Below are positions 22,411-42,081 of a stretch of 46,505 nucleotides of DNA, one piece after another. Source of the DNA: Minisyncoccota bacterium (GTDB lineage Bacteria > Patescibacteriota > Minisyncoccia > Phycocordibacterales > UBA918). The notes beneath the pieces were generated by a model, which had not been told where the DNA came from, searched no databases, and was given only the letters and a program-made list of their open reading frames with translations. The stretch covers positions 1 through 46,505 of the forward strand of contig JAJOLD010000001.1 of the NCBI GenBank assembly GCA_021129515.1, in the 5' to 3' direction. The position numbers and the translations under genes were made by a program. Numbering within the stretch: the first letter of the stretch is position 1; each line of letters opens with the position of its first letter.

Positions 22411-25400
22411 ATGAGATTTTTCTCAAAAACAACAAGAAAAAACAACATAATACCCTTATTTACAGCGCTATATGGTACTGCGTCGGCTTTTCGTAGTGGA
22501 CGACGCAAGATATTTGCAATCTATGGGCTCTGCATGTTGTGTGGACTTGGTATGTTTGCACATGCACAACTCGGACAATCAACCGTGACCACCATTGAAA
22601 CCGTGCATGTATTCCCAGAACAGGTCACTGCAGTTGGTTGGAAAAATGTTGAGTCAGTAGTGGTGCAAAACCTGGATGAGTTTGCGTTGTATCAAGAGTT
22701 CAATAAGATTAATTCCTCCTACCCTGATTCTGATTTCTTTAAAAAAGAGATTGCCACACAAGAAAAGAATCCTGACACTGAGTCTGAATCGGCAGAAACG
22801 CCTGAGCCTGTAGCAGTACCGCAAGACATAGAAGTCGAAAAAGAAACGGAACAATCAGAGGTGGCAGCATCTACCTCTGAAGCACCTGCAGTGGTGTCCG
22901 ATGATACAGAAGTGCAAGCAACCACTACTACTGAGCAGGTTGCGGAACCAGTGGCAGCGGGTACAACAGATGCTGTTTCTGATACGGATGCAGAAGACAC
23001 AGATACTGCTGAGACACCTGCTGCAGACGATACTGCGCCTGTGGCTGATACTGATGCTCTAGAGGTTGCGGAGGACGAAGAACCTGAAGCTGAAACTGAA
23101 ACACCTGCTGCATCAGATGAGCAGGATACAGTTGATGCTCCAGTTGCCTATACACCAGTGCCGTTTACCTCTGTATTTGCAGCGCTCATTGACCCAATGC
23201 CATTTGTATCGACTGCAACAACGGTGCCATTTATTGATATAAGCCAGGAGTCTGTCGCATACATTGAAGCAGATGCGGAGGTGGTTGAAGACGTTGTGTT
23301 AGTCGATAGTACTGTCGAGACGGAGGTGCCTGTGGATGCGTCTGAAGACACTCCTGATACTTCGGTAGGGACGGTTCCTATGGCAACCACTACTTCGTCT
23401 GAAGCAGATACAATACCTACTGTTACTACAGAGACACCGCATGAGGAGGTTGTAGCAACATCAACCATACCTACTGCATCCGAACCATCAGAGGCGGCAA
23501 CCACAACGGAATCTGTTGTGGCAGATGTAGACACACCGCATGCAACAACGACTACTGCCACAGCAACTCCAGTGCATGGTTCCGTTGCAGAAGAGGTGTA
23601 TGCATCGACTACTGTGAGTTGTGATGGTGCATGTGCCTTTTCAAGTATTACGCTCTCAGGTTTTGGATTGCCAATTTTTGATGAAGAGCGTGCATTACGT
23701 GGCGCACAGCTTCGCATGTCGTTTGCAGCACAACGAAAAGAAACGAGAGATGTTATACAAAATATGCATGTGCGGTATTCATTTGATGATGGTGCTACAT
23801 GGATTCCTGGTGGTGATGTGTTCATCCAAGAGGATGCATCAAACAGTCTCAATGGTGGCTACTTCTTGTTTGCATTGCCACAGATTGCGGATCCTGCATT
23901 GCTTGATAACCTCACTGTTGAACTAGTGTACCGAGATAACCCAGCAGTGCTGACCGGGCTGTTTGTAGATGCGGTGTGGTTGGAAGTGTTTACGGTGAGT
24001 GAAACTGTTGATCCGCTCCTCTCAGTGCAGGAGCTATTGAAAGATAATGGATTTGATGCACAGCCTTTGTCAGGAGATGTATTGGTACTTGATGATGGCA
24101 CTGCGTTGCAGTTTGATACCACGGATGAAAATGAAGATGAAACACTCATTATTAAATCGAACGATTTGATATATGAGGGATTGACCAAAACAACCACATA
24201 TTTCAATGTTACCAATACGAGTAACACTAAAGACACCTTTACCCTACAAACATACTTCCCAGAAGATGTTGGTACGGTACTCGCGCTCGAAGAGTGGAAC
24301 CAAAACAAAGAAAAGGAAATTGTCGTTCCAGAATATCGACCGTATATCTATCACTGTGAAGCTGGTTGGGAGCGATCTGATGGTTCCGTCGAGAGTACTC
24401 TCGAAGATCTCTCGCGTGCACTTATTGAAGCGGTTGCGGAGACTGAAGCTGACACTGCCACCAGCACTCCGGCGTCAGATGCCGCTACGACTACTGAAGC
24501 AATAGATGTAGCGGAGTCCCTAACTGCAGCAACGACAACCGATGATGCACCAGTGCCTGCACCGTTAGATACTGACGCTGATGACATCGATGTACCGCAC
24601 TCTGCAACAACGGAGATTGAAGCACCTGTCCCAGACGCGGTGCCGTTATTGCAAGCAAATCTCTCATTAGTATCGAGCGCTACAACCACGGACGATGCTA
24701 CAGCTACAATGGACGAGGCACATCCTGCTGATGAGGAAATACCGGCATATGTCTGTCGCAACACCACCATTGTTCGACAGTGTGATGTGATTGAAGGAGA
24801 CAATACCACCTGTCGTGTCAACAATATGAAGGTTGCGACACACGAAGTGACTCGATATTACGGTGGCTGGGAAGAGTCTGCAATTACAGCGGGTGCCGTA
24901 GAAAAAGATACGGGCGTGCTGCATAAGGTGAAACAATTCTTTGGCTTTGCGGCGCGCACTAAAGCAGTGCCTGATGTATTTGAAGCGCGCTCATACTCAG
25001 AAACCACCTACACCATCGAACCTGGAGAAACAAAATACTTTAAGATGGATATCGAGTTCCCGCCACTTTCACGCGGTGAGTTCTGGGTAGAGGCAATTGG
25101 TGCACGTGAATACGGACTCCTTGACCCATTCTGGTCGAGTGAATGGAAGTATCGTTTGCCAGTGATGCTTGATAATACACTGGGTAGTGACACGCTGACT
25201 GACCATCAGGTGCGCTTTACCATTCCAAGTACGGCAACTGATTTTTGGAGCAATGTAAATGCCGATGGAAGTGATGTGCGTTTTGTACAAGAGGTTCCTG
25301 GTACGTCAGATGATACCTGGTATGACACATCATGGAATACCCGTATGGCGATTACGGTGCAAGCATCTGAAGTGGATGCGACCTTAAATAATTTCCCCGT

Positions 25401-28400
25401 GTATGTAGACCTTGCCACACTGGGTGCTGAGTTCTTTGATGCTGTGCGGAGTGATGGCGGTGATATTCGTGTCACGGCAGCTGATGGTGTCACTGAAGTG
25501 CCATATGAACTGGTCGCTATTGATACAAGTGCAGAAACTGGTGAGTTGCACTTCCAGGCATCGTCGATAGCAAGCAGTGTTGATACCGTGTTCTACATCT
25601 ATTATGACAATGAGGGTGCACTTGGATATGCGCGCACTGATACCTATGGAAGTGAGCAGGTCTGGGATAGTAATTATCTCGGTGTCTACCACTTAGTAGA
25701 AACAAGTGCTGGGGTTGCTGGTGAATTTAAGGACAGTACCAGTAATGCGCATGATGGTGTCGGAGAAAATACGCTGCCAACACCCACAACTGGCTTCATG
25801 GGTGTGGGGCAAAATATGCAGTCGGGTCATATTGACTTGGGTGCTGCATCGCGATGGACGGATATTGGTACAAACGATGAATTCAACCTGTCTGCATGGA
25901 TTAATCTTGATAATTCTTCTAGTGATTATGCGATTGTGTCACAGTGGAGTGGTGGTGGCGCAGGTGTGTTGCTCTGGGCTGATGCTGGAGGATCGGGAGA
26001 TGGATTCTGTCTCTATGGTGGCAATTATGCACCGTCTGATTGTCAGGATCAAAATGATCAATCACCTGGAACGTGGCAGCATATTGTTGCACGCTATGAC
26101 AGCATTGATTGGTCGCTGTATATCGATGGTGCCATTAGTGGGTCTGGTGCAGTATCGCAAAGCTTAACGCAGCAGCCGGTTGGTTTTTCTATCGGTTCAG
26201 TACAAGCGGATGATAATACCCACGCCTTTGATGGACGAATGGATGAGATTCGTATTTCAAGTATTGATAGGGGAGAAAACTGGCTTGAATCAGAGTATAC
26301 CAACCAAAGTGCCCCAACAACATTTTATGCTACTTCGACTCCAGATGAGCTCGTGACCACACAGTATAGTGAGCTCGATTTCTGGATCCAGCACTTTAGC
26401 ACCACCACCAACGAAGCGGACGTCTGGGTGCAGGTAGACACGCTTGCTGCGGGCGCCTCGACTACTATCTATCTCTACTATGGTAATGAAGACGCAACCA
26501 TGGGCAGCGATGCCTTTAGTCCGTTTACCTATGACACGCTTACGCCAACATATTATGTGCTTGATGATATTGCCACCGGACCAATTCAAGTCTACAGCTA
26601 TATTGATAATAACCAGGTGCGTATTGATGATGGTACCCCGGTGTCGCTTGATGCGGGTGAAATGACTTCCTTTAGTACCTATAGTGGTTCTTCAACGATT
26701 AGCGCACTTGGTCCTATCGCTGCCACTATTGATGCTGCAGCAGCAGACTCTATTACCCCGGTTGCGTTTGCCTCAACTACACAGGCAGGACCAACTAATC
26801 GTAATACCTCACAATGGTTTGTGTTGTCACCATTTGCGAGCAGCTCGGTGCAAACCTATATTGCAAATAGTGGTACGCCAGATGAGAACTTTAGTGTGGC
26901 AACTGGTACGGTTGTGACTTCAAATACCGATGCAGGAGGGGGTCAGTCCGTGATTTTGGAATCATCGGACCCAATATTGGTGTACCACCGTGAATCAGGA
27001 AGTCGCGATAGTTTTGTGCTCTATCCACCAACTACTGATGATCTCTATGGTATTGATTCAAACAGTGTGTATGTCACGGCACTTGCAGATGATCCAGATC
27101 CAACGGTGTACTGTTCAAGTGGCTCAAGTGCTACGGTCACTGGTGTTACGCGGGGAGAACGACAAAACGTTAGTACCTGTGTGGCAGCGGGAGAGGGTGT
27201 CGGTGATGCGGTTCGGTTTACTGGTGCGAGCACGCCGTTTGCGGCTATTCAGCAGGCTGACTCTGATGGTAGTGAGTCAACGACATTCTGGCCTGAGTAT
27301 GAGTTTGGTACAACATACTATATCCCTACCGACATGGCGTATGCGGCGATTGTGTGTGCACCGCGGTATGGCACGACCACCCTTGAAATACAGCCAAATG
27401 GTGGTGGGTCTGCATTAGAATCTGCAACCTGTGTGCCTGGTGCAAACATACCAGGTAAAGCGTACTTTGATAATGGACGGGGGGGTGACACCTTGGCATA
27501 TGCAGCAGGGCATATGATAGTGTCGACCAATGACGTCCCGTTCTATGTCATCTATGAGGATGATGAGGAAGACAATGATGAAACCAATATTCTGACCAAT
27601 GTCCAGGGTCGTAAATTTACAAAGACACCTATCACGGCTGCATTTGGAGCACAAGAGATAATTATTGACGCTGAGTATACCCAACATTCATTTGGGTGGT
27701 ATGAAAACACTGATGCAGAAACCGTTACTGATGCGTGGTCACTTGGTGAAGGTGCCTATGCGACCGAAGGCGTGCATATTACCGGGCAAGGCGCGGTGAA
27801 CGATGATGATGTGTTGCGACTCCGTATCAATGCATTGGCGAGTGCGGCAACAGGCACGGCAACATCATCAGCATTTAAGCTGCAATATGCGGTGTCTGAT
27901 ACCTGTGCCGTGAGTAGTACGTCGTGGCATGATGTCGGTGCAATCGGTAGTACTACCGCACACTTTACCGGGTACGATAATGCTTCAGTGTCTGATGGTG
28001 CCACACTTGCTTCTACGACACTGGCATCAAGTACGGTCTTTGCAACCTATGAAGAAGAAAACCTATCAAGTCGTAACCCGGTAGATATTAATCCAGGTGC
28101 GTATGCAGAATGGGACTGGGTCATACAAAGCGCCAATGCATCGGTAAATACAAACTACTGTTTCCGGATGGTGCGCGAAGGTGGACAGCCGTTGGTTAGC
28201 TACACAACGTATCCAGAACTCTATACTGCGGGACCACCACTTCAGGCAACGACATTGGTCTACTTTGATAATGAACATACCGCAGACCTTGATTCGGTAC
28301 TCGATTTCACTGCAGTAGATGCTGCGGGTGATGATATTAATTACCAGGTGCAGATTGATACAGACCCTTCATTCGGTAGTCCTGTTGTCGACAGAAACTC

Positions 28401-31400
28401 GCTCACCAACTTCTTAGAATTTGAGAATATCAATACACCGTCTGACAAGGCACCATTTACCAGTGGTAACCGTATTCGGTTTACTTCACCAACAACGCTG
28501 ACAGCGAGCACTACGTATTGGTGGCGGGTGCGTGGTCGTGATCCTGATGGTTCTAATACCTATGGGACGTGGTCAGTACCAAGCAGTTTCACTACCAATG
28601 GCGCTATCGTGGTCAGTGAGTGGCATCAGACTACTGGACATCAATTTGATACGGACACCTTGGTCAATCTTGCAACGAGTACGGGTGCGGTGTCACTCAC
28701 GAGTAGTCCGGCGGTGCTTACCACATCAGCTATTGATTTTGACGATGCAACCGTGGGTAATGCATGGGGTGCGGTCACGTGGAGTGATACTGAAACGTCA
28801 GGGACGATTCTCTATCAGATAGAGTATTATGACGGTACCTCATGGGCGTTGGTGCCTGATAGTGCACTTGCAAACAACAGTATTGGTAATGGTACCGCAC
28901 CGCTCAATATCTTAGGACTTGATACAGATACCTACAATCAAATCCGTATCGTTGCAACGCTCACCGGCGCCACACTCTCAATTGAAGACCTCACCGTACA
29001 ATGGGGGCAGCGAGTGAACACACCGACACTGCTTGACCCGTTTGATAACGAAAAAATTGCAGACACCACACCTGAATTCACCTTTACTACCACCGATCCG
29101 CAACTCGATGATTTGGTCTACGAGGTGTCCTATAGTACCGACTATATATTTGTAAGTAGTACTACTGTCAACTCGAGTACCACACCGGCAGATTTTGCAA
29201 ATGTCTCGACACCGCTTGATACTAATCCGTACAATTCGGGTGATACCATTCGCTACACCATACCGGGTGGGGCAGCCCTCACTAACGGTGAAACTTACTG
29301 GTGGCGGGTGCGTGCAAAAGACCCAGCCGGAGGAGATGCCTGGTCACCATGGTCTGATGCTGATGCGCTTACCGTTGATACCTCGGTGACGGTCTCGACC
29401 TGGTTCCAAACGACCCAAGCACAGTTTGCACAAGGGGAACTTGATGGATTGGTTGCGTCGACCTCGGGCTCAGTGGGACTTAACACAGAAATTGGAGAAT
29501 ACGGAAAAGTAATTGTTGATGCAGAAGATTGGACAACGGTGAACACAACAGGCTCGTACAACACACCAGTGGTGGTAGCGTCACTCCGATATGCACCACA
29601 AGGTGAAACACAACGTGCCGTGCGTGTCCGTAACAAAACTGAAACCTCATTTGAAATAAAAGCAGATGATCCAAATGGTGTGTTGACGGGTACAACAACC
29701 GTTGATTATTTGGTGATGGAAGCGGGTGATTGGACCATGGCTGATGGTGCCGGCGGTACACGCGTTATTGCAGGTACGTTTAGTGAGGTGAGCGATGTGC
29801 AGGGAGGTGGCAGTTATGCAGGAAGTGGATATGGTGAAGATGTTGCCTTTTCTCCACCATTTGCAAGTGCGCCAGCAATTGTTGCAACCGTCTCAACTGA
29901 AAATGATGCGTCCTGGGTGGTCGCGCACCTCAACGACGGCAATACACGCTCAAACCCACCAGATGCAAGTAACATGGGTATATATCTTGGAAGGAGTGCC
30001 TTAAGTGCGGTGCATGATCCTGAAGATGTTGATTATATTGCGATAGAAAGTGGACACGGTACCAATAACGGTGGTGAATTTGATGCTGACGTAGGTTCAG
30101 ATTCACACAATGAGCCACCGGTCACTGCAGAGGCATATAACACCGCATTTAGCGTTGCGCCTGAAGTAATCATTGTGATGCAGGCGGCAGAACAAGACGG
30201 TAATGGTGCATGGTTCTCAGTGTATGAAGATACAGCACCAACTGCTGCAAACTATTATCCTGTAAGCGATGAAGCAGGAGACCGAAACCATACCCCTGAA
30301 CCGGTGTTTGCGATTTCATTTGAAAATGCATCGGGAGTACTGGTGCGTGAAGCATCATCGGGCGGTGGTTTGTCAGGTACAATCTATAGTGAACCTATCT
30401 ACTTTAGTGATGGTGCTGGTCCAAAGTTTGAGGAGTTCCTTTGGAGTGATAGCACGCCAGGTACGAGTACTATCCGGTATCAGCTTGAGTATCTTGCGGG
30501 TGGGTCTACCTGGACGCTCATTCCTGATACCGATTTAGCTGGAAACAGTGTGGGTACTACTACTGCACCAGTTGACTTGACGGGGCTTGATGTGGTGACA
30601 TATGACACCATTCGTATTGTTGGTACATTGGCGTGTGCAAATGGTACTTGTCCTGAGTTACACGACTGGACCATTGCATGGTCTGAAGGGGTGACTGTGT
30701 CAGGTACTGCACAGGAATATGACCGAGCCACGGCAGTGACTTCAGGGACGGTGCGGATTGCGGTAAACGGTGTGTTGAGTGCTAATACCGGCACTATTGC
30801 AGGTGGCACCTGGAGTATCAACAACATCACTGCATTTGCAGGCGATGTAATTACCGTGTTTGTCGATGGAGCCGCTGAAGCACAAGAAGCAGTGAATGTC
30901 TTTGTATATGACGGCATCGGTGACATGACGGGCGTCGCACTCTATGAGCAGCATCTCGCACTTGATGCAGATGAAACAGCGACCACAACGCTTGCACATC
31001 TCAGTACATACGATAATAGCGTGTCTGGTGATGAAGACATCTTCTTTGATGTCGACGGGTTAGGCGATTTGACGCTCTGTACTGCTGGTGCGTGTAGTCG
31101 GATTAATCTGTACATTGGTGCGGGCAATAGTTTTGTGCCCGCAACATCAACGGCTGAAACACTCCGTGTACACGACTATGTCAACGATGGATTTGTTGCA
31201 CTTGATGGTAATACGCTTGAGGTAAGTGGATCGTGGGAAAATAATGCCAATACGCAGATTGATACATCGACCGTTATATTTACTGCATCCTCGACGGTTG
31301 AGACACTTGCTGATGTGTCAGGTACACTTTCTTTCAATAACCTCACTTTTGGTAATGCGGCAAGTACAGCACAGTGGCAATCAGCGTATCCGTATAGTAT

Positions 31401-34400
31401 TGCCGGTGATTTGTCAGTGCAGTATGGAACATTGGATAGAGCGTCGTCGACGATAACGGTGTCGGGTGATATTACGACGGGTGCAGCAGGTATCTGGTCT
31501 GGTGTAGCAACGACCACCTTTGCAGGAACAGCACCGGCGCAATGGACCGATGCAACTACGCTTGGACAGGATATTGGACATGTGGTTATTGATGGACCAG
31601 CGCTGACCGTTGCTGCACAGAGTAATGTACGTGCGTCATCGATCATCATTGGTGCTGATGACACCTTTGATGCTGGTGGTACCTATACCATTGCCGTGCT
31701 GGGCGATGTTACTAATAACAACATATTTACCCCACGCACGAGTACCTTGGCATTGGTTGGTGCGTCATCGGTGGTGACTATGAACAATTCGTCACTCTAC
31801 ACCGTGCATGCGTCTGCAACTATGAGTGTTGCATTTACTGATACCAATATCGTCGTGTTGGATAATTTCCAAATTGCGACAGGTACGGTGACCTTGCCAA
31901 CGGGTACCACAACCATTGGTGGCTCCTTTAGTAACATCGGAGGTAATTTTGCACACAATAATGGTGCGGTGGACATGGTTAGTACCGGTGCTGAAACGAT
32001 TGCGCAACAAGGTACCAATTTCTTAAATGCATTCTACAATCTGTCATTTACGGGTTCTGGTAGCTGGTCATTTGTCGATACTGCAGCAACAACCACAAAC
32101 GATTTTATTATTACCGATGGTGCGGTGACGCTCCCAAGCAGTCAGCTTACGGTTGGTGGTGCATATCGTACTGAGGGTTCTGGTTCATTTGCGCACAATA
32201 CTGGTGAGGTCGTGCTCTTGGTCACTGCAAGTGATGCGGTGACGACAAACGGTTCTGCCTTTGAGGATGTCCGTATCCGTAACGCGGCAAGTGGTGCCTG
32301 GTATGACTTTGACTGGACAAGTCGAAAAGCAATTACTATTGATGCAAGTGTGATTGACGCAACACTGACCAATTTCCCAGTCTATGTTGATTTAGCGGAC
32401 TTGGGTTCTGATTTCTTCACTGAGGTCAATGCAGACGGTGGCGATATTCGTATCACACAAAGCGATGGGGTCACTGAGGTTGCGCGCGAAGTGGTGGCTA
32501 TTAATACCGGTGCTGAAACAGGAGAATTGCACTTCAATGCAACCAGTATTGCAAGTACGACCGATACCACCTTCTATATCTACTATGGAAATAGCGGAGC
32601 GTCGGAACCTGCAGCAAGTGCAACCTACGGGAGCGAGAATACCTGGAATAGCAATTATGAAGCGGTGTATCACTTGAGTGAATCCGGATCGACGTATAGT
32701 GATAGTACCAGTAATGGGCACGATGGTACGGGTGAAGGTACCAATCCAACCGTAACCACTGGGGTGCTCGGTGATGGGCAAGATATTGCCAGTGGGCGCA
32801 TTGACCTCGGTAATGGCATGAATACGGATCTTATTTCCGCAGGTGCGTATGTAGTATCTGTGTGGGTGAATCTCGACACCTCAGCAAGTGACCAGTCACC
32901 TGTCTCACAATATACTGCTGCAGGAGATTTTCTCTTCTGGGCTGATGCAGGCGGAGGTGGGACGGGATTCTGTCATTACAACGGTACGTATATGCCAAGT
33001 GACTGTGTGGATTTGAATAATCAAAATGTAAGTACCTGGCAATATCTTGTTGCTCGACACGATGGAAGTGTTGGTTCGGTGTATGTCGATGGACAGATTA
33101 CAGGCGTGGGTGATACATCGTCAACGTTTGCCGTTGATGCAGGTGTGCGGTTTTCTATCGGTACCCAAAATGGTGACAGTACCGCCCGGCAGTTCAATGG
33201 ACAAGTCGATGAAGTGCGTATTGTATCAAGCGCACTCTCTGCGGAATGGATTGCCGCAGAGTACCAAAACCAAGCAACCACCACTGATTTCTATACGATT
33301 GCTGCTTCAGAAGATGTCTTTGCGCGCACCTTTACTGAGGCTGCCGCTACGGTGCTCGGTGACATCACTATTGAAAGTGGTGAGGTGGTATTTCCATCAG
33401 GAGTACTCTCAGTAGGTGGGTCGTTTGATAACGATGGTACGTTTGCTGCAAATAACGGTACCGTGCTCTTTAACTCAGCTGCAGGGAGTGAAACTATTGC
33501 TGCGGGTGTGTCTTCGTTTGCGACCGTGCAGTTTAACCATGCCGCAGGCGACTTTACAATTACAGAGCATGCCACAGCAACTGATGCACTTGCACTGGTA
33601 GATGCTGCATCCTTTACGGTCAATAGTGGTTTAGTACTTGCATCACAAGGTGCCTTTACCAATACCGTGGGCGGTGCAAGTACGACTTGGACGGGTACAA
33701 CGCTCAAACTCTCAAGTGGTGGGGATGTTCCTATAAATACTACTGCTGACGCCGGTGACACCTATGCAACCCTGCTAACGACAGGTGATACCAGCGTTTC
33801 TATGTGGAATTCAGCTGCAGGTACGTACACCACCATGGATACTGCATCTATTTATTCACAAGATCATGCGGGTGTTGATGGTGATCTCTATATCTTTGGA
33901 ACATACACACGAGACAGTGGTACAGAATACTGGAGTTATGCGACTGATTTTGACGGTACCGACCTCGGCACCACATCACCGCGTGCCGTCTCCGTACATG
34001 TAGAAAACGGCGCGTCGGTAACTATTGCAACATCTTCGTTCGAAATGCGCGGTGTTGCAGGGGCATCAACTACGGTCGATGCACAAAGCGGCAGCTTTGC
34101 TATTACTGCAGCACATGCAACGGTCACGGCAGAATACTTTACGATGACCGGTACTGATGCAGACGGACTTGCCTTGACGAGTTCAACAACCGTCACTACC
34201 TTTGATCGCTTTATGTTCACCATCGGTGCTGGGGTGTCTGCAGTCACGGTAGATGCGTCCACTATTGATACGAATCCTGCTGCACAGTTCTTTGAAACAG
34301 GATTTGTCAGTGGTGGTGGGTCTGCCAACGTAACGCTCAGTGGTAGCCCCACTTCATTCTGGTGGTTCCGCGATGGTGCGGGTGACCGATACGGAGAAGC

Positions 34401-37400
34401 CTTTGATAACGCTGATGGTAATCCTGGTGCATTACGCTGGGATGATAGTAATTACACTATCGATATTTCGGGTACCGTGTATGCCGATGATGGTACCACT
34501 ACACTCGGTGGTCCAACCTGTGACGGTGTCACCAATGTCGTGCGTGTGGTTGTTGATGGTGGTACCTATACCGATAGTGTGCCGTGTAGTGATGCCAGCG
34601 GAGCATACACATTGAGTAATGTTGCGTATGTGGGTGATGCTGATTTGGTAGTGTATCTCGATACAAATGGTGGTGTGCTCGGCAGTGTCTATACAAAGAC
34701 ACCAACGGGGAATATTACCGACCTCAATATATATGCACATCGTGTCATGACTCGACACGAAGATACTGCTGCAATGACTATTGCCGATATGGTGCATTAT
34801 GATGAAGACGATGATAGCGACCTGCGTGTGTCTACCGCGACGGGCTCACCAGATACAGTGATTGTACGTGCTGACACTGAGCTTATCATTGCATCAAGTA
34901 CCACGTTTGCACCGAGTGGTACCGTTACGGTGGAATCGGGAGGTAGTGGTATGGCATATGATGGCTCATTCCATATCGATGACAACGCGACCTTTACTGC
35001 TAGTGGTACAGAAACACATCGTGTTGGTGGTAGTTTCTTCCGTGATACTGGCTCGAGTTTTGATGCAGCATCGACCACATTTATCTTTACTGCCACAACC
35101 AGTGGTAAGGCAATTACCAGTGTGGTGAGCGGTGATACAGCATTCCATGCAGTGCAGTTTACTGGCGTTGGGGGAGCCTGGAATCTGAATACCGATATTG
35201 CATTGACTGCAGACCTGACACTTGCCACCGGTACGCTTACAGGAACTGGCAATATTACGCTTACGCAAGGCGCATTTACTGGTGACGGTTCGCTGTCACT
35301 TGGTGGCGGTACGGTGAGTATTGCGGAGGGGAGTGTGCTTGGTGGGGTCAATCCATGGACATTCCACAACATAACGCTTGGTACCGGCACCACATACGGC
35401 ACGACAACCAGAGCATCGCTCGCGACGACGACGGTCGGTGGCGTGCTCACCGTTACTGCAGGGCATGTGCTCGACATGGGTGGTTCGCACTGGGAGCTTG
35501 CTGGCGCAGGAACGCCATTGGTGCTGACGGGAACACTTGATACAGCAACCAGTACAGTACGGTACAGTGCATCTGCGGCAACCAATATTGTGAGTGGTGC
35601 GTATTACAACCTCCTTTTGAGTGCAAGTGGTAATGCACCAACATATACGGCAATCGGTCCTGGTATTACCGTTGGTAATGCGCTCACGATAGGTGGTGCA
35701 ACTACAACCAATGTGACCTTTACCACCAACGATACCGCTCTCGATGTTGCAGGGGATATGACCATTGCAACAACAGGTGTCTTTGTGGCAAGTGACAGTG
35801 GCAGCTTCACCCTTGCGGGGAGTTATGATAATAACGGCACCTTTACCGCAGGTGATGGTACGGTCACCTTTGATGGTGTCGGGAGTGCAACGGTTGCTGC
35901 GGGAAGTTCGGCATTTGCGACGGTGCTACTCACCGGTACCGGTGACTATACGTTTAGTGAATATGCATCAGCAACGGAAGCATTCAGTATCGGAAGTTCG
36001 GTGGGGTCGTTTACACTTGCAAGTGGGGAAACCTTGGCGGTTGGCGGCACCTTTACCAACGCACTTGGTGGCGCATCAACAACATGGAGTGGTTCAACGC
36101 TTGAGCTTGCGGGCGGCAGTAATTACGCAATCAATGCAAAAACTATCGCAGATCGGTACAACACGTTGGTCGTAGCGGACGGAACACAAATTCGCATGTG
36201 GAATAGTAGTGCAACTACTACCATGGTACTTGATACGAGTTCACTCTATTCAATGGATCATGCCGGTGTGGATGGTGCGGTGTATGTATATGGTACCTAC
36301 ACTAAAACGGCTGGTACTGATTATTGGAGTTATGCAACTGACTTTGATGGTACCGATTTGTCTGGTGGTGATGAGCGAGCCGCATCGGTGTACTTTGCTG
36401 AGTATAGTACTACCACATATACCGGTGGTGGATTACAGGTGCTTGGTACGGCATCGGCAACCACGACCCTCCAAAAACAACCACCACTTGCATCTGGGGT
36501 GACCATTGTTGATGGCTTTACTTCGGGCACCACTAAAACCATTTCAGCAGGCATTAATCGACTATTGGTGGTTGGTATTTTTGCTGAAGATAGTGCAACA
36601 AATGCAGATATAGACACCGTCACGTATGGGGGAGAAACAATGACTGAAATACATGATGAGCAAATCACCACCGTCTTTACCAATGCAGTATGGGTTGGGT
36701 ATCTCGATGAAACAGGGATGAGTGCTGCTATTGGAAATACCATTAGCCCAACATGGGTTGGCGGTACACCTGACTCTTCCGTGCTCTATAGTTCGGTGGT
36801 GCTCGGGCATGTTGATCAGGTTAACCCAATTTCTGGCTGGAGTGCAGATAGTGCGGCAAGTGTTGCAACACTGCAGGCGACGTCATCACTCTCTGTGGCA
36901 GATGGGGACCGCACGCTCTATTTCACGGGTGTTGGTTCGGGTGGGGTAACGCATACCCCTTCCAGCGGCTATACCGAAGGTACTGAGGAAGACGATACCA
37001 GTGCCGTTGCAGCAACTGCCCACCGCGCAATTACGGGAAGTGGTACAGAGTACCCAACCGCAACATGGTCGAGTGCTGTCAATCATGTGGTAATGCTTTC
37101 ACTCAATGTCCGTTTTGCAACACCACTGGCGAGTACCTACGGGTTGCGTATTGGTGGTACGGCATCAACCACATGGTCCTACTATAGTATTCGCGAAATT
37201 GATGCAGATGGGCTTACCTTTAGTGGTACACCAAACGTCACCTCATTGTCATATGGTGATTTCCTTGTCGCACATGATGGTGGTTCAGCGCTCACTATTG
37301 GAGGTACGGTGATTAATGAAAATCCAGCAAAGAACTTTGTTGCAAACACCTTTGCAACGTCGAGCACCTTCGCGACTGCATACAATGTCACTGCAACGGG

Positions 37401-40400
37401 TACGGCAATCAGCTCATGGCGCTTTGTGAGCCATGTCGGTGATCTTGCGGGTGAATCATATGATAATGATCTGGGCGGTGACCCTGGGTACGTGGTGTGG
37501 GATGATAGTGCGGCTAATATTACGATTTCAGGAAACGTCTACAGCGATGAAGGAAGTACTGTGTCTTCAGTGTGTGATGGTGCAACCAACAACATTACAC
37601 TGCGGGTTGCTGGCTTAACCAGTTACACTACAAGCTGTAATGCAACCACAGGCTTCTATCAAATTACGGGTGTTGCCTATGGTCCAACCGATACCCTCAC
37701 ACTCTACATTGACAACGAGCCGGAAAACGCGGCAAACGTGACGGTAGCCCCGGTATCATCAATTGGTGATATGCATTTGTATGAAAATCGTGTCATTGTG
37801 CGTCATGAAAATACTGACCCGCTCACCATCGCAGATATGTCTGTATGGGATGATAGTGATGATGGTGATATTCCATTCACTGCGGTCGATGGTGGTACCG
37901 ATACCCTGACCCTCCCTGCAGATTACAAACTCATTGTATGGAATAACAAAACCTTTGCACCAGCAGGTAATATAACGCTCGCAGGCGGTGGCGCAGGTGC
38001 CGCGTATGATGGTACGCTCGCACTCTTTGCAGATGCACAATTTGCCGCAGCAGATGGAGAAAATCATTCCATTGGAGGCAGTATGGTGATGGATGCCGAT
38101 GCAGTATTTGATGCACAGGAATCAACAATGACCTTTACCACCACAGCTGCAGCGCGCACTATTGATACCAATGAGCAGCCATTCTATAAACTCACCTTTA
38201 ACGGCACTGGTTCATGGTCCATTGCAAATACCGATCTGGCAGTCGATAGTGATTTGAGTATTACGCAAGGTACGCTCACACTTCCAAGCGGTACCACAAC
38301 CATCTCAGGGTCTATGAATGCGGGTGGTGGTTCATTTGCACATAATAATGGTGTGGTGGTCTTTGATTCAGCAGGTACCGGAGAAGTGCTGTTGACTGGC
38401 GGATCCGCATTTAATGAACTTATATTCACGGGTGATGGTTCATGGAATATGAATGATACACATGCCACCGCAACTGACCGCGTGCGTATTGCCAATGGAG
38501 CTGTTCGATTCCCATCAGGTTCTATGGCAATTGGTGCAGATTTGACCGTACATGCTACAGGAACTCTGATGCACAACAATGGTGCTGTGTGGCTCACCTC
38601 AACTGCACCGACTACAACCGTGACACTCACTGGGTCCGATTTGTACACACTGGTTGCAAACGGTGATAGCGAGCTCGTGTTTGCCGATACTAACGTGGCA
38701 TTGCAAGGTGACTTGACCTTGCTCCAAGGCACCACAACGGCAGCGACCGGTACACTCTCTATTGGTGGCTCATTCCAAAATGATGCATCGTTTAGTCATG
38801 CTTCAGGAACACTTTACTTCAACTCAGGCGACACTGGAGAAACGGTGTCAGTTGGTGGTGATGCACTACACAACGTGCTCTTTGCATCAGCGGGCGGTGG
38901 TTGGACTATGGTGACGAGTGCAACCACAACGGGTAATTTCTCACTCACCAATGCAACGGGGTATGTACAAACATCAGGTACCACACTCACGGTTGCCGGT
39001 GTATTTACCAACACAGTGGGTGGTGCTGCAACTACCTGGACTAATACCACCCTTCGACTCACCTCTGGTACCGACTATGCAATCAATACCAAGGCAGCAG
39101 GAGGGGATAGTTACGCAACCATAGCACTTGCGGATGAGATGGATGTGCGTTCATGGAATTCAAGCTACACCACGGTCACGCTCGCGACATCATCACTCTA
39201 TTCTCAGGACCATGCATCGGTTGATGGTGACCTCTATATCTATGGTGACTTCACACTTGCAACAGGAACCGCATACTGGAGTTATGCAACGGACTTTGAC
39301 GGTACGGTGCTGACTGGTGGTAGTCGCCGCGCGGTTGATGTGTTTATAGCATCAGGATCAACCGTCAGTGTTGATGGCGGCTCGCTCTATATGGTCGGTG
39401 ACGCAACAGCAACCACTACCGTGCAGGGCGTGAGTGGCTATACCTATCCATTTAGCGTTGCGAGCGGTCTCTTTGATGCACAATATTATGCATTTAGAAA
39501 TCTCAATGCATCAGGACTCCATTTTGCAGATACACCAACCATTAATGCACTCTCATATGGAGATTTTGTCTTGGATGTTTCAGGCGGCTCTTTGATTACT
39601 CTCAGCTCAACCACCTTAAATGCAAACGCCTCAATGGTTATTCCGGGTGTACGCTTTGCAACCACATCGGCAATTTCTGGTGTTAACGTTACGCTCTTGG
39701 GTACTACCACTAATGCATGGCAATTCATTGGACACAGCGGCAATATCAGTGGTGAGGCATATGACAGTGACGATGGTACTAATTGTGGTTCAATTCGATG
39801 GGACGATAGCTCATGTTTGCTCACGCAGCAGACTGGGTATCGATGGCGTACTGACGATGGCGGGTTGGGCGTGCCTGATGATGAATGGCTTGATACCGAC
39901 TGGAGTAAGCGTCGGCAAATTCGAGTACGTAATGATGATGCAACGACCTATACCAATATGCCAGTACGTGTAGAAGTATCTTATGACAGCGACATGCAGA
40001 CTGACTTTGAAGATGTACGCTTCACCGATGCAGCAGGAACGACCGAACTCTCATATTGGGTTGAGCGATATACCGCAAGCACCGATGCAACTGTGTGGGT
40101 ATTGGCACCGTCATTGGCAGCATCAGACATTACCACTATCTATATGTACTATGGGAATGCACTAGCAACCTCATCGGCTTCTGGCACCGCAGTCTTTAAT
40201 GCATTTGATGATTTTGAAGATAATGATATTGCTGAATATAGCGGTGATACAACCCTCTTCCAAACCGATACCACCTTCAACTATAACGGGAACTTTGGTC
40301 TTGAAGCGTCAGACACCAACGAAAAAACAGATAATGGACTCTATGATACAACCGATGTTGCAGGGCAGGGTGAGATTATTCGCTACCTCCAATATATCGA

Positions 40401-42081
40401 TACCAGTGCTGGTTCAGGTGATGAAACCTGTACGTACTTTGGTGTACAAGGCATGGGGAGTAACTACGGTATCTGTCTTGCACTCTTTGGTATTGACCGT
40501 ATGGCATTGGTTGAAGATGTCGAGTTTAACGATAGTAGCGGTACGGTGCTTGCGAGTACCACTGTCAGTTTTGTGACAGGATGGCACGAAGTAGAAATTG
40601 ACTGGCAAACCAGTGGCACTATGGATGTCACCCTTTCACGTAGTGGAAGTGTCGTTGCAACAACATCTGCAACCGATAGCACCTATACATCAGGTGGTAT
40701 TGGATTTGGATTCTGGTTCCAGAATGGTGGTTGGGATAGTTATACCTCTCGACCGCGCATGCAGACCGCACCAACTGTGTGGATTGGTGATGAATCAGTA
40801 GCAGGTGGTGCGTCTTGGGCTGCCGCACAAGATACCGAGGTGACCACACTGTCTATTGGTGATACCGCACGCGTACGATTCTTAATTGAAAATACTGGTC
40901 TTGATATTACCAATCAAAACTTTGAAATCGAGTATGCTGCGAAAGGAACTGCACCAAGTTGTGAAGCAGTGGCTGGCAACACCTATACGGCAGTACCAAC
41001 ACAAGCGTCATGTGGTGCAAATGCTATCTGTATGAGTACGTCAACGCATGTGGTAAATCTTGCTGCAACCGCTGATTTGCTCACGGGTGCAGCGGGTGAC
41101 TTCACAGCAGGTCAATTTGTAGAGGACGCCTCAACACAAACGAGCAATCTCGATGTCCTGACCGATGAATTTACCGAACTTGAGTACGCACTCACTCCAA
41201 CAAGCAATGCCATTGATTCAAGCTACTGTTTCCGAGTGACCAATGCGGGTACCGATTTGGATGCATACATTAGTGTTGCGGGTATGGTGCTCCGCTTTGA
41301 CCCCGTTATTACTGCACTCAGCTTGAATAATGGAGACGATATTGTATTAAGTCCCGGTGCGACCACCACCGTTTACGCAACGGGTACCGTCACTGACCTC
41401 AACGGTTTTGCCGATTTGGATGTTGCCACAGCAACGATATACAGAAGTGGGGTGGGAGAGACCTGTACTGAAGATGCTAATGATTGTTATCGAGCGGGCA
41501 ATGCATCTTGTACTTTGAATAGTTGTGGCGGTACTGCTTGTGCATTGGAATGTTCGGTTGATATGTACTACTTTGCTGACCCAACCGATATTGGTACCTA
41601 TGCCGGTGAAACCTGGCGGGCATTTGCTGAAATTGCCGACGTATCAGGCAGTACCGCAACCGCAACCGCACCATCTATTGATTTGTTGACCCTGCGCGCA
41701 ATTACGGTTGACGATAGTATTGCATACGGTGCTCTTGCGCCATCAAGTGATACCGGTGCCGTCAATGCGTCAACAACTGTTGAAAATATTGGTAATGATA
41801 ATATTGATATTAGTATTTCTGGTACAAACTTAACGGATGGTGCGACCTCAGAAATTCCAGTGTCTGAACAACGCTTTGCAACCTCGACCTTCACCTATGC
41901 GTCGTGTGTGATTTGTTCCACGCTCAGTACCACCTCGTCCAGCTATGAAGTTGACCTGTGGAAACCAACCACGACAACACCAGGAGTCACTGATGAAATC
42001 TACTGGGGTATTAACATTCCATTTGGTGTTGCCGGTACCGCACATTCCGGAGAAAACACATTCTCCGCAATCGCGGATTAG
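22411..42081 (+). CDS. Giant modular secreted surface protein (about 6,557 aa from ATG 22411, 6,571 aa from TTG 22366): DUF2341, LamG, Fn3-like, lectin-like modules and large repeats
   Basis: Single open frame with no stops over 19.7 kb; signal segment KIFAIYGLCMLCGLGMFAHAQ; three DUF2341-like modules, two LamG-like modules, repeated YWSYATDFDGT and WWRVR(A/G)(K/R)DP motifs. Confidence 0.93.
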   Translation: MRFFSKTTRKNNIIPLFTALYGTASAFRSGRRKIFAIYGLCMLCGLGMFAHAQLGQSTVTTIETVHVFPEQVTAVGWKNVESVVVQNLDEFALYQEFNKINSSYPDSDFFKKEIATQEKNPDTESESAETPEPVAVPQDIEVEKETEQSEVAASTSEAPAVVSDDTEVQATTTTEQVAEPVAAGTTDAVSDTDAEDTDTAETPAADDTAPVADTDALEVAEDEEPEAETETPAASDEQDTVDAPVAYTPVPFTSVFAALIDPMPFVSTATTVPFIDISQESVAYIEADAEVVEDVVLVDSTVETEVPVDASEDTPDTSVGTVPMATTTSSEADTIPTVTTETPHEEVVATSTIPTASEPSEAATTTESVVADVDTPHATTTTATATPVHGSVAEEVYASTTVSCDGACAFSSITLSGFGLPIFDEERALRGAQLRMSFAAQRKETRDVIQNMHVRYSFDDGATWIPGGDVFIQEDASNSLNGGYFLFALPQIADPALLDNLTVELVYRDNPAVLTGLFVDAVWLEVFTVSETVDPLLSVQELLKDNGFDAQPLSGDVLVLDDGTALQFDTTDENEDETLIIKSNDLIYEGLTKTTTYFNVTNTSNTKDTFTLQTYFPEDVGTVLALEEWNQNKEKEIVVPEYRPYIYHCEAGWERSDGSVESTLEDLSRALIEAVAETEADTATSTPASDAATTTEAIDVAESLTAATTTDDAPVPAPLDTDADDIDVPHSATTEIEAPVPDAVPLLQANLSLVSSATTTDDATATMDEAHPADEEIPAYVCRNTTIVRQCDVIEGDNTTCRVNNMKVATHEVTRYYGGWEESAITAGAVEKDTGVLHKVKQFFGFAARTKAVPDVFEARSYSETTYTIEPGETKYFKMDIEFPPLSRGEFWVEAIGAREYGLLDPFWSSEWKYRLPVMLDNTLGSDTLTDHQVRFTIPSTATDFWSNVNADGSDVRFVQEVPGTSDDTWYDTSWNTRMAITVQASEVDATLNNFPVYVDLATLGAEFFDAVRSDGGDIRVTAADGVTEVPYELVAIDTSAETGELHFQASSIASSVDTVFYIYYDNEGALGYARTDTYGSEQVWDSNYLGVYHLVETSAGVAGEFKDSTSNAHDGVGENTLPTPTTGFMGVGQNMQSGHIDLGAASRWTDIGTNDEFNLSAWINLDNSSSDYAIVSQWSGGGAGVLLWADAGGSGDGFCLYGGNYAPSDCQDQNDQSPGTWQHIVARYDSIDWSLYIDGAISGSGAVSQSLTQQPVGFSIGSVQADDNTHAFDGRMDEIRISSIDRGENWLESEYTNQSAPTTFYATSTPDELVTTQYSELDFWIQHFSTTTNEADVWVQVDTLAAGASTTIYLYYGNEDATMGSDAFSPFTYDTLTPTYYVLDDIATGPIQVYSYIDNNQVRIDDGTPVSLDAGEMTSFSTYSGSSTISALGPIAATIDAAAADSITPVAFASTTQAGPTNRNTSQWFVLSPFASSSVQTYIANSGTPDENFSVATGTVVTSNTDAGGGQSVILESSDPILVYHRESGSRDSFVLYPPTTDDLYGIDSNSVYVTALADDPDPTVYCSSGSSATVTGVTRGERQNVSTCVAAGEGVGDAVRFTGASTPFAAIQQADSDGSESTTFWPEYEFGTTYYIPTDMAYAAIVCAPRYGTTTLEIQPNGGGSALESATCVPGANIPGKAYFDNGRGGDTLAYAAGHMIVSTNDVPFYVIYEDDEEDNDETNILTNVQGRKFTKTPITAAFGAQEIIIDAEYTQHSFGWYENTDAETVTDAWSLGEGAYATEGVHITGQGAVNDDDVLRLRINALASAATGTATSSAFKLQYAVSDTCAVSSTSWHDVGAIGSTTAHFTGYDNASVSDGATLASTTLASSTVFATYEEENLSSRNPVDINPGAYAEWDWVIQSANASVNTNYCFRMVREGGQPLVSYTTYPELYTAGPPLQATTLVYFDNEHTADLDSVLDFTAVDAAGDDINYQVQIDTDPSFGSPVVDRNSLTNFLEFENINTPSDKAPFTSGNRIRFTSPTTLTASTTYWWRVRGRDPDGSNTYGTWSVPSSFTTNGAIVVSEWHQTTGHQFDTDTLVNLATSTGAVSLTSSPAVLTTSAIDFDDATVGNAWGAVTWSDTETSGTILYQIEYYDGTSWALVPDSALANNSIGNGTAPLNILGLDTDTYNQIRIVATLTGATLSIEDLTVQWGQRVNTPTLLDPFDNEKIADTTPEFTFTTTDPQLDDLVYEVSYSTDYIFVSSTTVNSSTTPADFANVSTPLDTNPYNSGDTIRYTIPGGAALTNGETYWWRVRAKDPAGGDAWSPWSDADALTVDTSVTVSTWFQTTQAQFAQGELDGLVASTSGSVGLNTEIGEYGKVIVDAEDWTTVNTTGSYNTPVVVASLRYAPQGETQRAVRVRNKTETSFEIKADDPNGVLTGTTTVDYLVMEAGDWTMADGAGGTRVIAGTFSEVSDVQGGGSYAGSGYGEDVAFSPPFASAPAIVATVSTENDASWVVAHLNDGNTRSNPPDASNMGIYLGRSALSAVHDPEDVDYIAIESGHGTNNGGEFDADVGSDSHNEPPVTAEAYNTAFSVAPEVIIVMQAAEQDGNGAWFSVYEDTAPTAANYYPVSDEAGDRNHTPEPVFAISFENASGVLVREASSGGGLSGTIYSEPIYFSDGAGPKFEEFLWSDSTPGTSTIRYQLEYLAGGSTWTLIPDTDLAGNSVGTTTAPVDLTGLDVVTYDTIRIVGTLACANGTCPELHDWTIAWSEGVTVSGTAQEYDRATAVTSGTVRIAVNGVLSANTGTIAGGTWSINNITAFAGDVITVFVDGAAEAQEAVNVFVYDGIGDMTGVALYEQHLALDADETATTTLAHLSTYDNSVSGDEDIFFDVDGLGDLTLCTAGACSRINLYIGAGNSFVPATSTAETLRVHDYVNDGFVALDGNTLEVSGSWENNANTQIDTSTVIFTASSTVETLADVSGTLSFNNLTFGNAASTAQWQSAYPYSIAGDLSVQYGTLDRASSTITVSGDITTGAAGIWSGVATTTFAGTAPAQWTDATTLGQDIGHVVIDGPALTVAAQSNVRASSIIIGADDTFDAGGTYTIAVLGDVTNNNIFTPRTSTLALVGASSVVTMNNSSLYTVHASATMSVAFTDTNIVVLDNFQIATGTVTLPTGTTTIGGSFSNIGGNFAHNNGAVDMVSTGAETIAQQGTNFLNAFYNLSFTGSGSWSFVDTAATTTNDFIITDGAVTLPSSQLTVGGAYRTEGSGSFAHNTGEVVLLVTASDAVTTNGSAFEDVRIRNAASGAWYDFDWTSRKAITIDASVIDATLTNFPVYVDLADLGSDFFTEVNADGGDIRITQSDGVTEVAREVVAINTGAETGELHFNATSIASTTDTTFYIYYGNSGASEPAASATYGSENTWNSNYEAVYHLSESGSTYSDSTSNGHDGTGEGTNPTVTTGVLGDGQDIASGRIDLGNGMNTDLISAGAYVVSVWVNLDTSASDQSPVSQYTAAGDFLFWADAGGGGTGFCHYNGTYMPSDCVDLNNQNVSTWQYLVARHDGSVGSVYVDGQITGVGDTSSTFAVDAGVRFSIGTQNGDSTARQFNGQVDEVRIVSSALSAEWIAAEYQNQATTTDFYTIAASEDVFARTFTEAAATVLGDITIESGEVVFPSGVLSVGGSFDNDGTFAANNGTVLFNSAAGSETIAAGVSSFATVQFNHAAGDFTITEHATATDALALVDAASFTVNSGLVLASQGAFTNTVGGASTTWTGTTLKLSSGGDVPINTTADAGDTYATLLTTGDTSVSMWNSAAGTYTTMDTASIYSQDHAGVDGDLYIFGTYTRDSGTEYWSYATDFDGTDLGTTSPRAVSVHVENGASVTIATSSFEMRGVAGASTTVDAQSGSFAITAAHATVTAEYFTMTGTDADGLALTSSTTVTTFDRFMFTIGAGVSAVTVDASTIDTNPAAQFFETGFVSGGGSANVTLSGSPTSFWWFRDGAGDRYGEAFDNADGNPGALRWDDSNYTIDISGTVYADDGTTTLGGPTCDGVTNVVRVVVDGGTYTDSVPCSDASGAYTLSNVAYVGDADLVVYLDTNGGVLGSVYTKTPTGNITDLNIYAHRVMTRHEDTAAMTIADMVHYDEDDDSDLRVSTATGSPDTVIVRADTELIIASSTTFAPSGTVTVESGGSGMAYDGSFHIDDNATFTASGTETHRVGGSFFRDTGSSFDAASTTFIFTATTSGKAITSVVSGDTAFHAVQFTGVGGAWNLNTDIALTADLTLATGTLTGTGNITLTQGAFTGDGSLSLGGGTVSIAEGSVLGGVNPWTFHNITLGTGTTYGTTTRASLATTTVGGVLTVTAGHVLDMGGSHWELAGAGTPLVLTGTLDTATSTVRYSASAATNIVSGAYYNLLLSASGNAPTYTAIGPGITVGNALTIGGATTTNVTFTTNDTALDVAGDMTIATTGVFVASDSGSFTLAGSYDNNGTFTAGDGTVTFDGVGSATVAAGSSAFATVLLTGTGDYTFSEYASATEAFSIGSSVGSFTLASGETLAVGGTFTNALGGASTTWSGSTLELAGGSNYAINAKTIADRYNTLVVADGTQIRMWNSSATTTMVLDTSSLYSMDHAGVDGAVYVYGTYTKTAGTDYWSYATDFDGTDLSGGDERAASVYFAEYSTTTYTGGGLQVLGTASATTTLQKQPPLASGVTIVDGFTSGTTKTISAGINRLLVVGIFAEDSATNADIDTVTYGGETMTEIHDEQITTVFTNAVWVGYLDETGMSAAIGNTISPTWVGGTPDSSVLYSSVVLGHVDQVNPISGWSADSAASVATLQATSSLSVADGDRTLYFTGVGSGGVTHTPSSGYTEGTEEDDTSAVAATAHRAITGSGTEYPTATWSSAVNHVVMLSLNVRFATPLASTYGLRIGGTASTTWSYYSIREIDADGLTFSGTPNVTSLSYGDFLVAHDGGSALTIGGTVINENPAKNFVANTFATSSTFATAYNVTATGTAISSWRFVSHVGDLAGESYDNDLGGDPGYVVWDDSAANITISGNVYSDEGSTVSSVCDGATNNITLRVAGLTSYTTSCNATTGFYQITGVAYGPTDTLTLYIDNEPENAANVTVAPVSSIGDMHLYENRVIVRHENTDPLTIADMSVWDDSDDGDIPFTAVDGGTDTLTLPADYKLIVWNNKTFAPAGNITLAGGGAGAAYDGTLALFADAQFAAADGENHSIGGSMVMDADAVFDAQESTMTFTTTAAARTIDTNEQPFYKLTFNGTGSWSIANTDLAVDSDLSITQGTLTLPSGTTTISGSMNAGGGSFAHNNGVVVFDSAGTGEVLLTGGSAFNELIFTGDGSWNMNDTHATATDRVRIANGAVRFPSGSMAIGADLTVHATGTLMHNNGAVWLTSTAPTTTVTLTGSDLYTLVANGDSELVFADTNVALQGDLTLLQGTTTAATGTLSIGGSFQNDASFSHASGTLYFNSGDTGETVSVGGDALHNVLFASAGGGWTMVTSATTTGNFSLTNATGYVQTSGTTLTVAGVFTNTVGGAATTWTNTTLRLTSGTDYAINTKAAGGDSYATIALADEMDVRSWNSSYTTVTLATSSLYSQDHASVDGDLYIYGDFTLATGTAYWSYATDFDGTVLTGGSRRAVDVFIASGSTVSVDGGSLYMVGDATATTTVQGVSGYTYPFSVASGLFDAQYYAFRNLNASGLHFADTPTINALSYGDFVLDVSGGSLITLSSTTLNANASMVIPGVRFATTSAISGVNVTLLGTTTNAWQFIGHSGNISGEAYDSDDGTNCGSIRWDDSSCLLTQQTGYRWRTDDGGLGVPDDEWLDTDWSKRRQIRVRNDDATTYTNMPVRVEVSYDSDMQTDFEDVRFTDAAGTTELSYWVERYTASTDATVWVLAPSLAASDITTIYMYYGNALATSSASGTAVFNAFDDFEDNDIAEYSGDTTLFQTDTTFNYNGNFGLEASDTNEKTDNGLYDTTDVAGQGEIIRYLQYIDTSAGSGDETCTYFGVQGMGSNYGICLALFGIDRMALVEDVEFNDSSGTVLASTTVSFVTGWHEVEIDWQTSGTMDVTLSRSGSVVATTSATDSTYTSGGIGFGFWFQNGGWDSYTSRPRMQTAPTVWIGDESVAGGASWAAAQDTEVTTLSIGDTARVRFLIENTGLDITNQNFEIEYAAKGTAPSCEAVAGNTYTAVPTQASCGANAICMSTSTHVVNLAATADLLTGAAGDFTAGQFVEDASTQTSNLDVLTDEFTELEYALTPTSNAIDSSYCFRVTNAGTDLDAYISVAGMVLRFDPVITALSLNNGDDIVLSPGATTTVYATGTVTDLNGFADLDVATATIYRSGVGETCTEDANDCYRAGNASCTLNSCGGTACALECSVDMYYFADPTDIGTYAGETWRAFAEIADVSGSTATATAPSIDLLTLRAITVDDSIAYGALAPSSDTGAVNASTTVENIGNDNIDISISGTNLTDGATSEIPVSEQRFATSTFTYASCVICSTLSTTSSSYEVDLWKPTTTTPGVTDEIYWGINIPFGVAGTAHSGENTFSAIAD
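25318..26331 (+). repeat. DUF2341 + LamG-like module, copy 1 in the giant ORF
   Basis: WYDTSWNTRMAITVQASEVDATLNNFPVYVDLATLGAEFFDAVRSDGGDIRVTAADGVTEVPYELVAIDTSAETGELHFQASSIASSVDTVFYIYYDNEG...FDGRMDEIRISSIDRGENWLESEYTNQSAPTTFY. Confidence 0.9.
28240..29460 (+). repeat. Two consecutive Fn3-like modules in the giant ORF
   Basis: TTYWWRVRGRDPDGSNTYGTWSVPSSFTTNGAIVVSEWHQTTGHQF and ETYWWRVRAKDPAGGDAWSPWSDADALTVDTSVTVSTWFQTTQAQF. Confidence 0.8.
29494..30350 (+). other. Inserted tandem H-type-lectin-like region in the giant ORF
   Basis: GKVIVDAEDWTTVNTTGSYNTPVVVASLRYAPQGETQRAVRVRNKTETSFEIKADDP...VDYLVMEAGDW; second unit AFSPPFASAPAIVATVSTENDASWVVAHL...VDYIAIESGHG. Confidence 0.6.
30684..34450 (+). 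repeat. Superrepeat copy A of the giant ORF
   Basis: Starts VTVSGTAQEYDRATAVTSGTVRIAVNG; ends GEAFDNADGNPGALRWDDSNYT. Confidence 0.75.
32299..33300 (+). repeat. DUF2341 + LamG-like module, copy 2, inserted in superrepeat A
   Basis: WYDFDWTSRKAITIDASVIDATLTNFPVYVDLADLGSDFFTEVNADGGDIRITQSDGVTEVAREVVAINTGAETGELHFNATSIASTTDTTFYIYYGNSG...FNGQVDEVRIVSSALSAEWIAAEYQNQATTTDFYTI. Confidence 0.9.
34451..37512 (+). repeat. Superrepeat copy B of the giant ORF
   Basis: Starts IDISGTVYADDGTTTLGGPTCDGVTNVVRVVVDG; ends GESYDNDLGGDPGYVVWDDSAAN. Confidence 0.75.
36498..37128 (+). other. About 210-aa domain inserted in superrepeat B
   Basis: VTIVDGFTSGTTKTISAGINRLLVVGIFAEDSATNADIDTVTYGGETMTEI...VVMLSLNVRFA, absent from the matching position of copies A and C; bounded by PLAS on both sides. 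Confidence 0.7.
37513..39825 (+). repeat. Superrepeat copy C of the giant ORF
   Basis: Starts ITISGNVYSDEGSTVSSVCDGATNNITLRVAG; ends GEAYDSDDGTNCGSIRWDDSSCLL. Confidence 0.75.
39886..40213 (+). other. Third DUF2341-like module in the giant ORF
   Basis: WLDTDWSKRRQIRVRNDDATTYTNMPVRVEVSYDSDMQTDFEDVRFTDAAGTTELSYWVERYTASTDATVWVLAPSLAASDITTIYMYYGN. Confidence 0.85.

Follow-up and report, generated by a model that had tools for sequence, protein, structure and literature searches.

Giant proteins with DUF2341 modules have been described from the Patescibacteria before. Patescibacterium danicum encodes giant FhaB/DUF2341 proteins for which no full-length homologs were found, and 82 of the 149 NCBI Patescibacteria proteins longer than 4,000 amino acids are of such a kind (PMC11809585). 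Giant surface proteins have also been reported from Vampirococcus (PMC8080830), poorly conserved giant open reading frames with laminin_G_3 or dockerin modules from Omnitrophota (PMC10066038), and a group of very large extracellular proteins, Giant1 to Giant5, from Apilactobacillus kunkeei (PMC12863079). In archaea, DUF2341 has been proposed to be located at pilus tips (PMC4858521). How episymbiotic Patescibacteria attach to their hosts is still largely open, and the giants described earlier lacked full-length homologs.

Here we analyzed a window of 46,505 nucleotides from a Minisyncoccota bacterium (positions 1 to 46,505 of contig JAJOLD010000001.1, assembly GCA_021129515.1) that carries a giant gene of this type. 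Patescibacteria were already known to have giants of the DUF2341/FhaB-like type; what looks new is the orthogroup, conserved as described below, and its cohesin-dockerin locus. We found no description of a cohesin-dockerin locus in Parcubacteria in the open-access literature searched. An orthogroup that is conserved and keeps the same partner genes offers a candidate attachment machine that is defined and can be tested in many genomes. Natural losses are available for comparison, namely, that of the giant in one relative (G098) and that of a transporter in the genome studied here. If borne out, such a machine would mean that cohesin-dockerin pairing also serves as a surface scaffold among ultra-small bacteria.

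An uninterrupted 19.7-kb reading frame in a reduced genome

The giant gene occupies positions 22411 to 42081 of the + strand, where, as originally predicted, a frame of ~6,560 codons runs for ~19.7 kb without a stop. It encodes 6,556 amino acids from an ATG to a TAG ending at 42081 (~687 kDa, pI 4.05, very low lysine). The other five frames have 160 to 632 stops across the gene, and the chance of an open run of this length, calculated from base composition, is ~10^-151. The frame is also open from an alternative start, TTG 22366; ATG 22411, which is backed by ortholog N-termini, is favored because the resulting MRFFSKTTR aligns with MSFFSNKTR of an ortholog. The gene accounts for 2.3% of a genome of 857,174 bases (24 contigs, 99.55% complete), bearing out the expectation of a very large coding investment. 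No RNA families were found in the window.

That the giant is an assembly or gene-model artifact might be suspected from the MAG-type data and from a scaffold gap (46506 to 46605) just beyond the window end. However, orthologs of similar length are present in many independent assemblies, and the longest exact direct repeat inside the gene is 16 nt, with no tandem arrays except one weak 35-nt row, so that collapse of short reads is not credible. The largest DNA repeat family consists of three 129-nt copies with 67 to 71% identity. A collapsed or chimeric assembly, the outcome named as refuting in the original prediction, is very unlikely on the strength of the 16-nt repeat maximum and the full-length orthologs in independently assembled genomes, and was rejected as an explanation; artifact in any form is scarcely credible.

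Modular architecture and predicted folds

The protein begins with a basic stretch followed by a hydrophobic segment (residues 34 to 52; 22510 to 22566), a signal peptide or anchor, and then a cleavage-like AHA|Q site, the A-x-A of which is kept in several orthologs although not in all. Directly after the hydrophobic segment, an alignment of 12 ortholog N-termini revealed a conserved mature N-terminal motif, FPxxVxxxxWxxxEnvxxQdl...ALyqeFnxxNsa (22594 to 22716). Two acidic T/A/E/P-rich linkers come next, linker 1 at residues 114 to 404 (22750 to 23620) and linker 2 at residues 674 to 777 (24430 to 24740). Their composition (56 to 58% T+A+E+P, 23% D+E) sets them apart from the rest of the giant, where no 290-residue window exceeds 36% and 17%, respectively. 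Both the signal-like N-terminus and the pair of acidic segments had been anticipated from the open frame and were recovered here.

Pfam identified four DUF2341 domains (25453 to 25623, 26359 to 26523, 32434 to 32610, and 40003 to 40230), three of which exceed the cutoff in the genome search, two Laminin_G_3 domains (about 25864 to 26262 and 32830 to 33255), and two Fn3-like (Ig_Rha78A_N) domains (residues 1947 to 2121 and 2206 to 2382; 28249 to 29556). Pfam and self-comparison delineated two DUF2341-LamG units, unit 1 (residues 923 to 1321; 25177 to 26373) being 50 to 52% identical to unit 2 (residues 3254 to 3643; 32170 to 33339). The DUF2341, LamG, and Fn3-like modules of the original prediction were hence all confirmed, while its lectin-like module was matched only weakly, by an H_lectin hit after the Fn3-like domains with an E value (0.025) that falls below the cutoff.

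Residues from about 3645 to 5801 (33343 to 39813) consist of three super-repeat copies of ~800 to 1,000 amino acids, 38 to 50% identical, each with beta-helix coils and an Ig/carboxypeptidase-regulatory-like domain. AlphaFold modeled one copy as regularly spaced short strands forming a parallel beta-helix plus an Ig-like domain (mean pLDDT 85), in agreement with the beta-rich repeats of the original prediction. The top solved match of the beta-helix model in Foldseek was the secreted adhesin EtpA (E=4.6e-5). Because the TM score is 0.23, the likeness of the modeled beta-helix to EtpA is one of fold class, not of close kinship.

The most conserved part is a C-terminal module of 756 amino acids (39811 to 42078) comprising DUF2341, an L-lectin/thrombospondin-type jelly roll, Ig-like domains, and a C-terminal domain ending in YWGI. 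The predicted jelly roll (pLDDT ~90) resembles thrombospondin and Emp46 lectin domains, and some structure matches of the module are the S-layer proteins SbsC and EA1. Model confidence is low for the final ~130 residues, and a search of solved-structure sequences with the profile of the module gave no match. No catalytic domain was detected in the giant by Pfam or NCBIfam, and genome-wide domain searches placed no cohesin or dockerin inside its frame. The protein is not of the LPXTG type, as it ends in ...ENTFSAIAD with no C-terminal hydrophobic segment; the genome encodes one sortase.

Orthologs in at least five families and evidence of purifying selection

Orthologs of 5,500 to 7,800 amino acids, with 45 to 60% identity across thousands of residues, occur in Paceibacterota that represent at least five families of the order; the longest open frame has 7,791 amino acids, and several of the smaller ones end at contig ends. 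Named matches include Kaiserbacteria, Adlerbacteria, Sungbacteria, Elulimicrobium, and other Paceibacterota MAGs, and the close full-length matches are all Paceibacterota/Parcubacteria/Kaiserbacteria MAGs or MAGs labeled only "bacterium." About 4,700 residues of the orthologs align in colinear order, for the most part with 35 to 65% identity; what varies is the part N-terminal to residue 1,800 and how many beta-helix insertions there are. Judged by these alignments, the giant is a member of a conserved orthologous family and not a one-off. Pairwise comparison of orthologs gave pN values of 0.22 to 0.37 and pS values of 0.75 to 0.79 (pN/pS 0.29 to 0.49), with synonymous sites saturated in every pair; pN and pS are reported here instead of dN/dS. 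The low pN relative to a saturated pS indicates at the sequence level that the giant is under purifying selection.

The C-terminal module is present in some 30 genomes; with the thresholds used, it was matched in 22 of the 49 genomes of the family and in 11 of the 247 sampled from the order. Two genomes of genus g6 (G005 and G011) have 10 to 17 matches each to the C-terminal ~250-amino-acid module, in frames of 227 to 1,073 amino acids, a multiplicity that represents a lineage-specific expansion.

This distribution bears on whether the giant might be a structural coat or matrix protein, i.e., an S-layer-like sheath or stalk in which the lectin-like folds serve assembly, and not a ligand-specific adhesin. 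Its plentiful beta-sandwich and beta-helix modules, very low lysine content, and acidic pI would suit a coat, as would the matches to SbsC and EA1 and the proposal that the Vampirococcus giants form a fibrous surface (PMC8080830), and its jelly roll and LamG domains could alternatively be structural. Yet a presence as patchy as that found in the family and the order would be odd for an essential coat, and G098 has cleanly lost the giant while keeping its neighbors. We consider this interpretation rather unlikely.

A conserved locus with cohesin and dockerin partners

In relatives, the giant is preceded, in this order, by genes for a WxLIP-like membrane protein, a small transmembrane (TM) protein, a dockerin protein, HSP20, and a 509-amino-acid protein, and followed by those for an Fn3 protein, an ABC ATPase, a MacB/FtsX permease, a 612-amino-acid protein, a 312-amino-acid TM protein, a dockerin protein, a 381-amino-acid protein, and cohesin proteins. 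The tightest core, HSP20-cohesin-giant, persists in four families of the order (f1, f51, f71, and f72). Family f71 lacks Fn3-ABC-FtsX genes on the downstream side of the giant.

In the window, the + strand upstream of the giant encodes a secreted Big-domain protein of 620 amino acids (18264 to 20126) with a C-terminal type I dockerin (19962 to 20108), the small heat shock protein HSP20 (20192 to 20758), next but one to the giant and conserved in place across families, and the 509-amino-acid membrane-anchored cohesin-like protein (20773 to 22302). The latter has a signal, a cohesin-like domain, a Big/Fn3 region, a TM segment at 410, and a charged cytoplasmic tail; three of its orthologs score above the Pfam cohesin cutoff, whereas the copy in this genome is below it. 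Downstream, on the same strand, are the 612-amino-acid protein (42470 to 44308), which has an N-terminal TM segment and a C-terminus paralogous to that of the giant, the 312-amino-acid protein (44429 to 45367), conserved in the locus and with a C-terminal TM segment, and a secreted Big_6 protein of 373 amino acids (45369 to 46490) with a C-terminal dockerin (46326 to 46469). A further cohesin of the same locus lies at contig positions 49535 to 49852. A third dockerin of the genome is on contig C14. Two other genes of the locus, encoding a NosD/beta-helix-like protein of 723 amino acids (12453 to 14624) and an FGE-sulfatase-like protein of 267 amino acids (17186 to 17989), have no counterpart at that place in the relatives examined.

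Across 247 genomes of the order, a full-length cohesin of the 509 type and the giant occurred together in 10, the giant only in 2, the cohesin only in 1 (G098), and neither in 234. In one of the two giant-only genomes the contig begins inside the giant, and in the other the giant matches partially. The nominal P value of the association (4e-15) overstates independence, as the genomes share ancestry and one of them (G257) was added after inspection of its neighborhood. In G098 (contig C51), dockerin, HSP20, cohesin, Fn3, ABC, and FtsX genes are all kept and the giant is cleanly absent, with ~55 nt between the 509-amino-acid and Fn3 genes. Membrane-anchored cohesin-like proteins related to the 509/594-amino-acid family are much more widespread than the giant, being found in 89 of the 247 genomes.

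With both partner domains encoded, the locus as such strongly suggests a cohesin-dockerin scaffold. Because the giant itself has neither a cohesin nor a dockerin, we infer its place in that scaffold from gene neighborhood and co-occurrence. One could also envisage a secreted polymer-processing system, in which the giant would be the carbohydrate-binding scaffold of a cellulosome-like cohesin/dockerin assembly, given that LamG_3 modules can bind carbohydrate and that dockerins, cohesins, the NosD-like beta-helix gene, and the FGE-type gene are all nearby. The lack of a Pfam or NCBIfam catalytic domain in the giant argues against it, as does the domain content of the dockerin proteins in the locus, which have Big-type domains only and no enzymes, making such a role distinctly improbable.

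Gene loss and lesions around an intact giant gene

The whole Fn3-ABC-FtsX gene set is absent from the locus in this genome. What is left is a scar on the + strand (42152 to 42394), where the final 80 codons survive of an otherwise missing MacB/FtsX-type ABC permease; they are 72 to 85% identical to the intact gene in relatives. A search of the genome for MacB_PCD gave no match. Other locus genes are also damaged. The gene for the WxLIP_PGBD-like membrane protein (weak match; 14782 to 15850, + strand), in relatives one intact frame of 347 to 364 amino acids with C-terminal TM segments, is frameshifted near 15440 to 15495. Both copies of the 381-amino-acid family seen in the locus are broken, one being a pseudogene (11455 to 12407) with an upstream frameshift and an in-frame TGA (12162 to 12164) at a conserved tryptophan and the other (contig C1, 47027 to 48190) having an in-frame TAG (47375 to 47377) at a tryptophan position. 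Stop codon recoding was considered and rejected, since TAG and TGA each fall on a tryptophan of the relatives and look like nonsense mutations, not a code change.

These losses raise the question of whether the giant depends on a MacB-like ABC transporter for its export or release and is, in this genome, a nonfunctional relic starting to decay. The Fn3-ABC-FtsX genes are indeed directly downstream of the giant in most relatives and lost here, and small neighboring genes have in-frame stops or frameshifts. However, all 19.7 kb of the giant are intact although shorter neighbors are broken: the other locus genes carry ~5 lesions in ~15 kb and the giant carries none (P of about 0.001 for zero lesions under a uniform rate, a post hoc estimate), and family f71 retains the giant without those genes downstream. 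This reading is highly improbable, and the contrast in lesions suggests recent selection on the giant.

Proposed function

The original prediction was right in describing a modular surface protein of very large size from a reduced patescibacterial genome. As to what that protein does, the reading that we favor, with moderate confidence, is that of a Sec-exported, cell-surface adhesive fiber, probably one dedicated to attachment. Adhesion is plausible, fitting the modeled EtpA-like beta-helix and L-lectin-like jelly roll, and both the activity and its target are inferred.

The giant would leave the cell through Sec via its N-terminal segment, the neighboring HSP20 possibly preventing aggregation of the long chain. 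Acidic linkers and beta-helices would extend it outward, and the DUF2341-LamG and jelly-roll modules may attach to carbohydrate or protein carried by a host cell or a polymer. The surface complex would be kept together by a Ca2+-dependent scaffold built from the membrane-anchored cohesins and the secreted dockerin proteins of the locus. The MacB-like transporter would be an accessory and not the exporter of the giant, because this genome keeps the giant without the transporter and f71 has no such genes beside it. Taken as a whole, the locus may encode a dedicated modular host-attachment apparatus of Paceibacterota, in which a giant beta-helix/lectin fiber is exported together with its own HSP20 holdase, a noncellulosomal cohesin-dockerin scaffold keeps it at the membrane, and a MacB-like transporter is optional, a broader proposal that we put forward tentatively, as possible more than probable.

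Comparison with known systems

The long beta-helix predicted in the giant is shared with the two-partner-secretion (TPS) adhesins filamentous hemagglutinin and EtpA. These have a TPS secretion domain, whereas the giant adds DUF2341, LamG, and Fn3 modules and gave no Pfam or NCBIfam match to that domain in residues 1 to 1000. Membership in the TPS class was rejected, its defining N-terminal domain not having been found; a search for TpsB/ShlB had no match in this genome, nor in the control genomes. Patescibacteria are not known to possess an outer membrane.

A likeness to the Gram-positive WxL/WxLIP surface complexes lies in the weakly matching WxLIP_PGBD-like membrane protein of the locus. Membership in that system was also rejected, as a search for the WxL domain (PF13731) at E<=10 was negative for this genome and positive for the control Lactococcus. 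A place in a type IV pilus locus, as for a tip protein of the PilY1-like DUF2341 type, was not supported either, with no pilus gene among the annotated neighbors of the giant here or in the loci of relatives. The locus does qualify as a cohesin-dockerin system, type I dockerin and cohesin domains both being present, but not as a cellulosome, since no dockerin-bearing catalytic enzymes are found among its dockerin proteins.

Among other giants, those of A. kunkeei are likewise surface proteins of 3,000 to 8,000 amino acids that take up a few percent of a small genome, but they belong to another organism group and the likeness drawn here is one of description. Omnitrophota giants are similar in size, LamG_3 modules, dockerins, and symbiont lifestyle, and differ in that the dockerins of the present locus are on separate neighbors and have cohesin partners. 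Closest are the FhaB/DUF2341 giants of Patescibacteria, which the present protein resembles in size, phylum, DUF2341 modules, beta-helix character, and proposed adhesion and with which it belongs by its length of >4,000 amino acids, its possession of at least one DUF2341 domain, and its Patescibacterium host. Unlike the P. danicum proteins, for which no full-length homologs were found, it is part of a colinear orthogroup with a conserved locus in at least five families.
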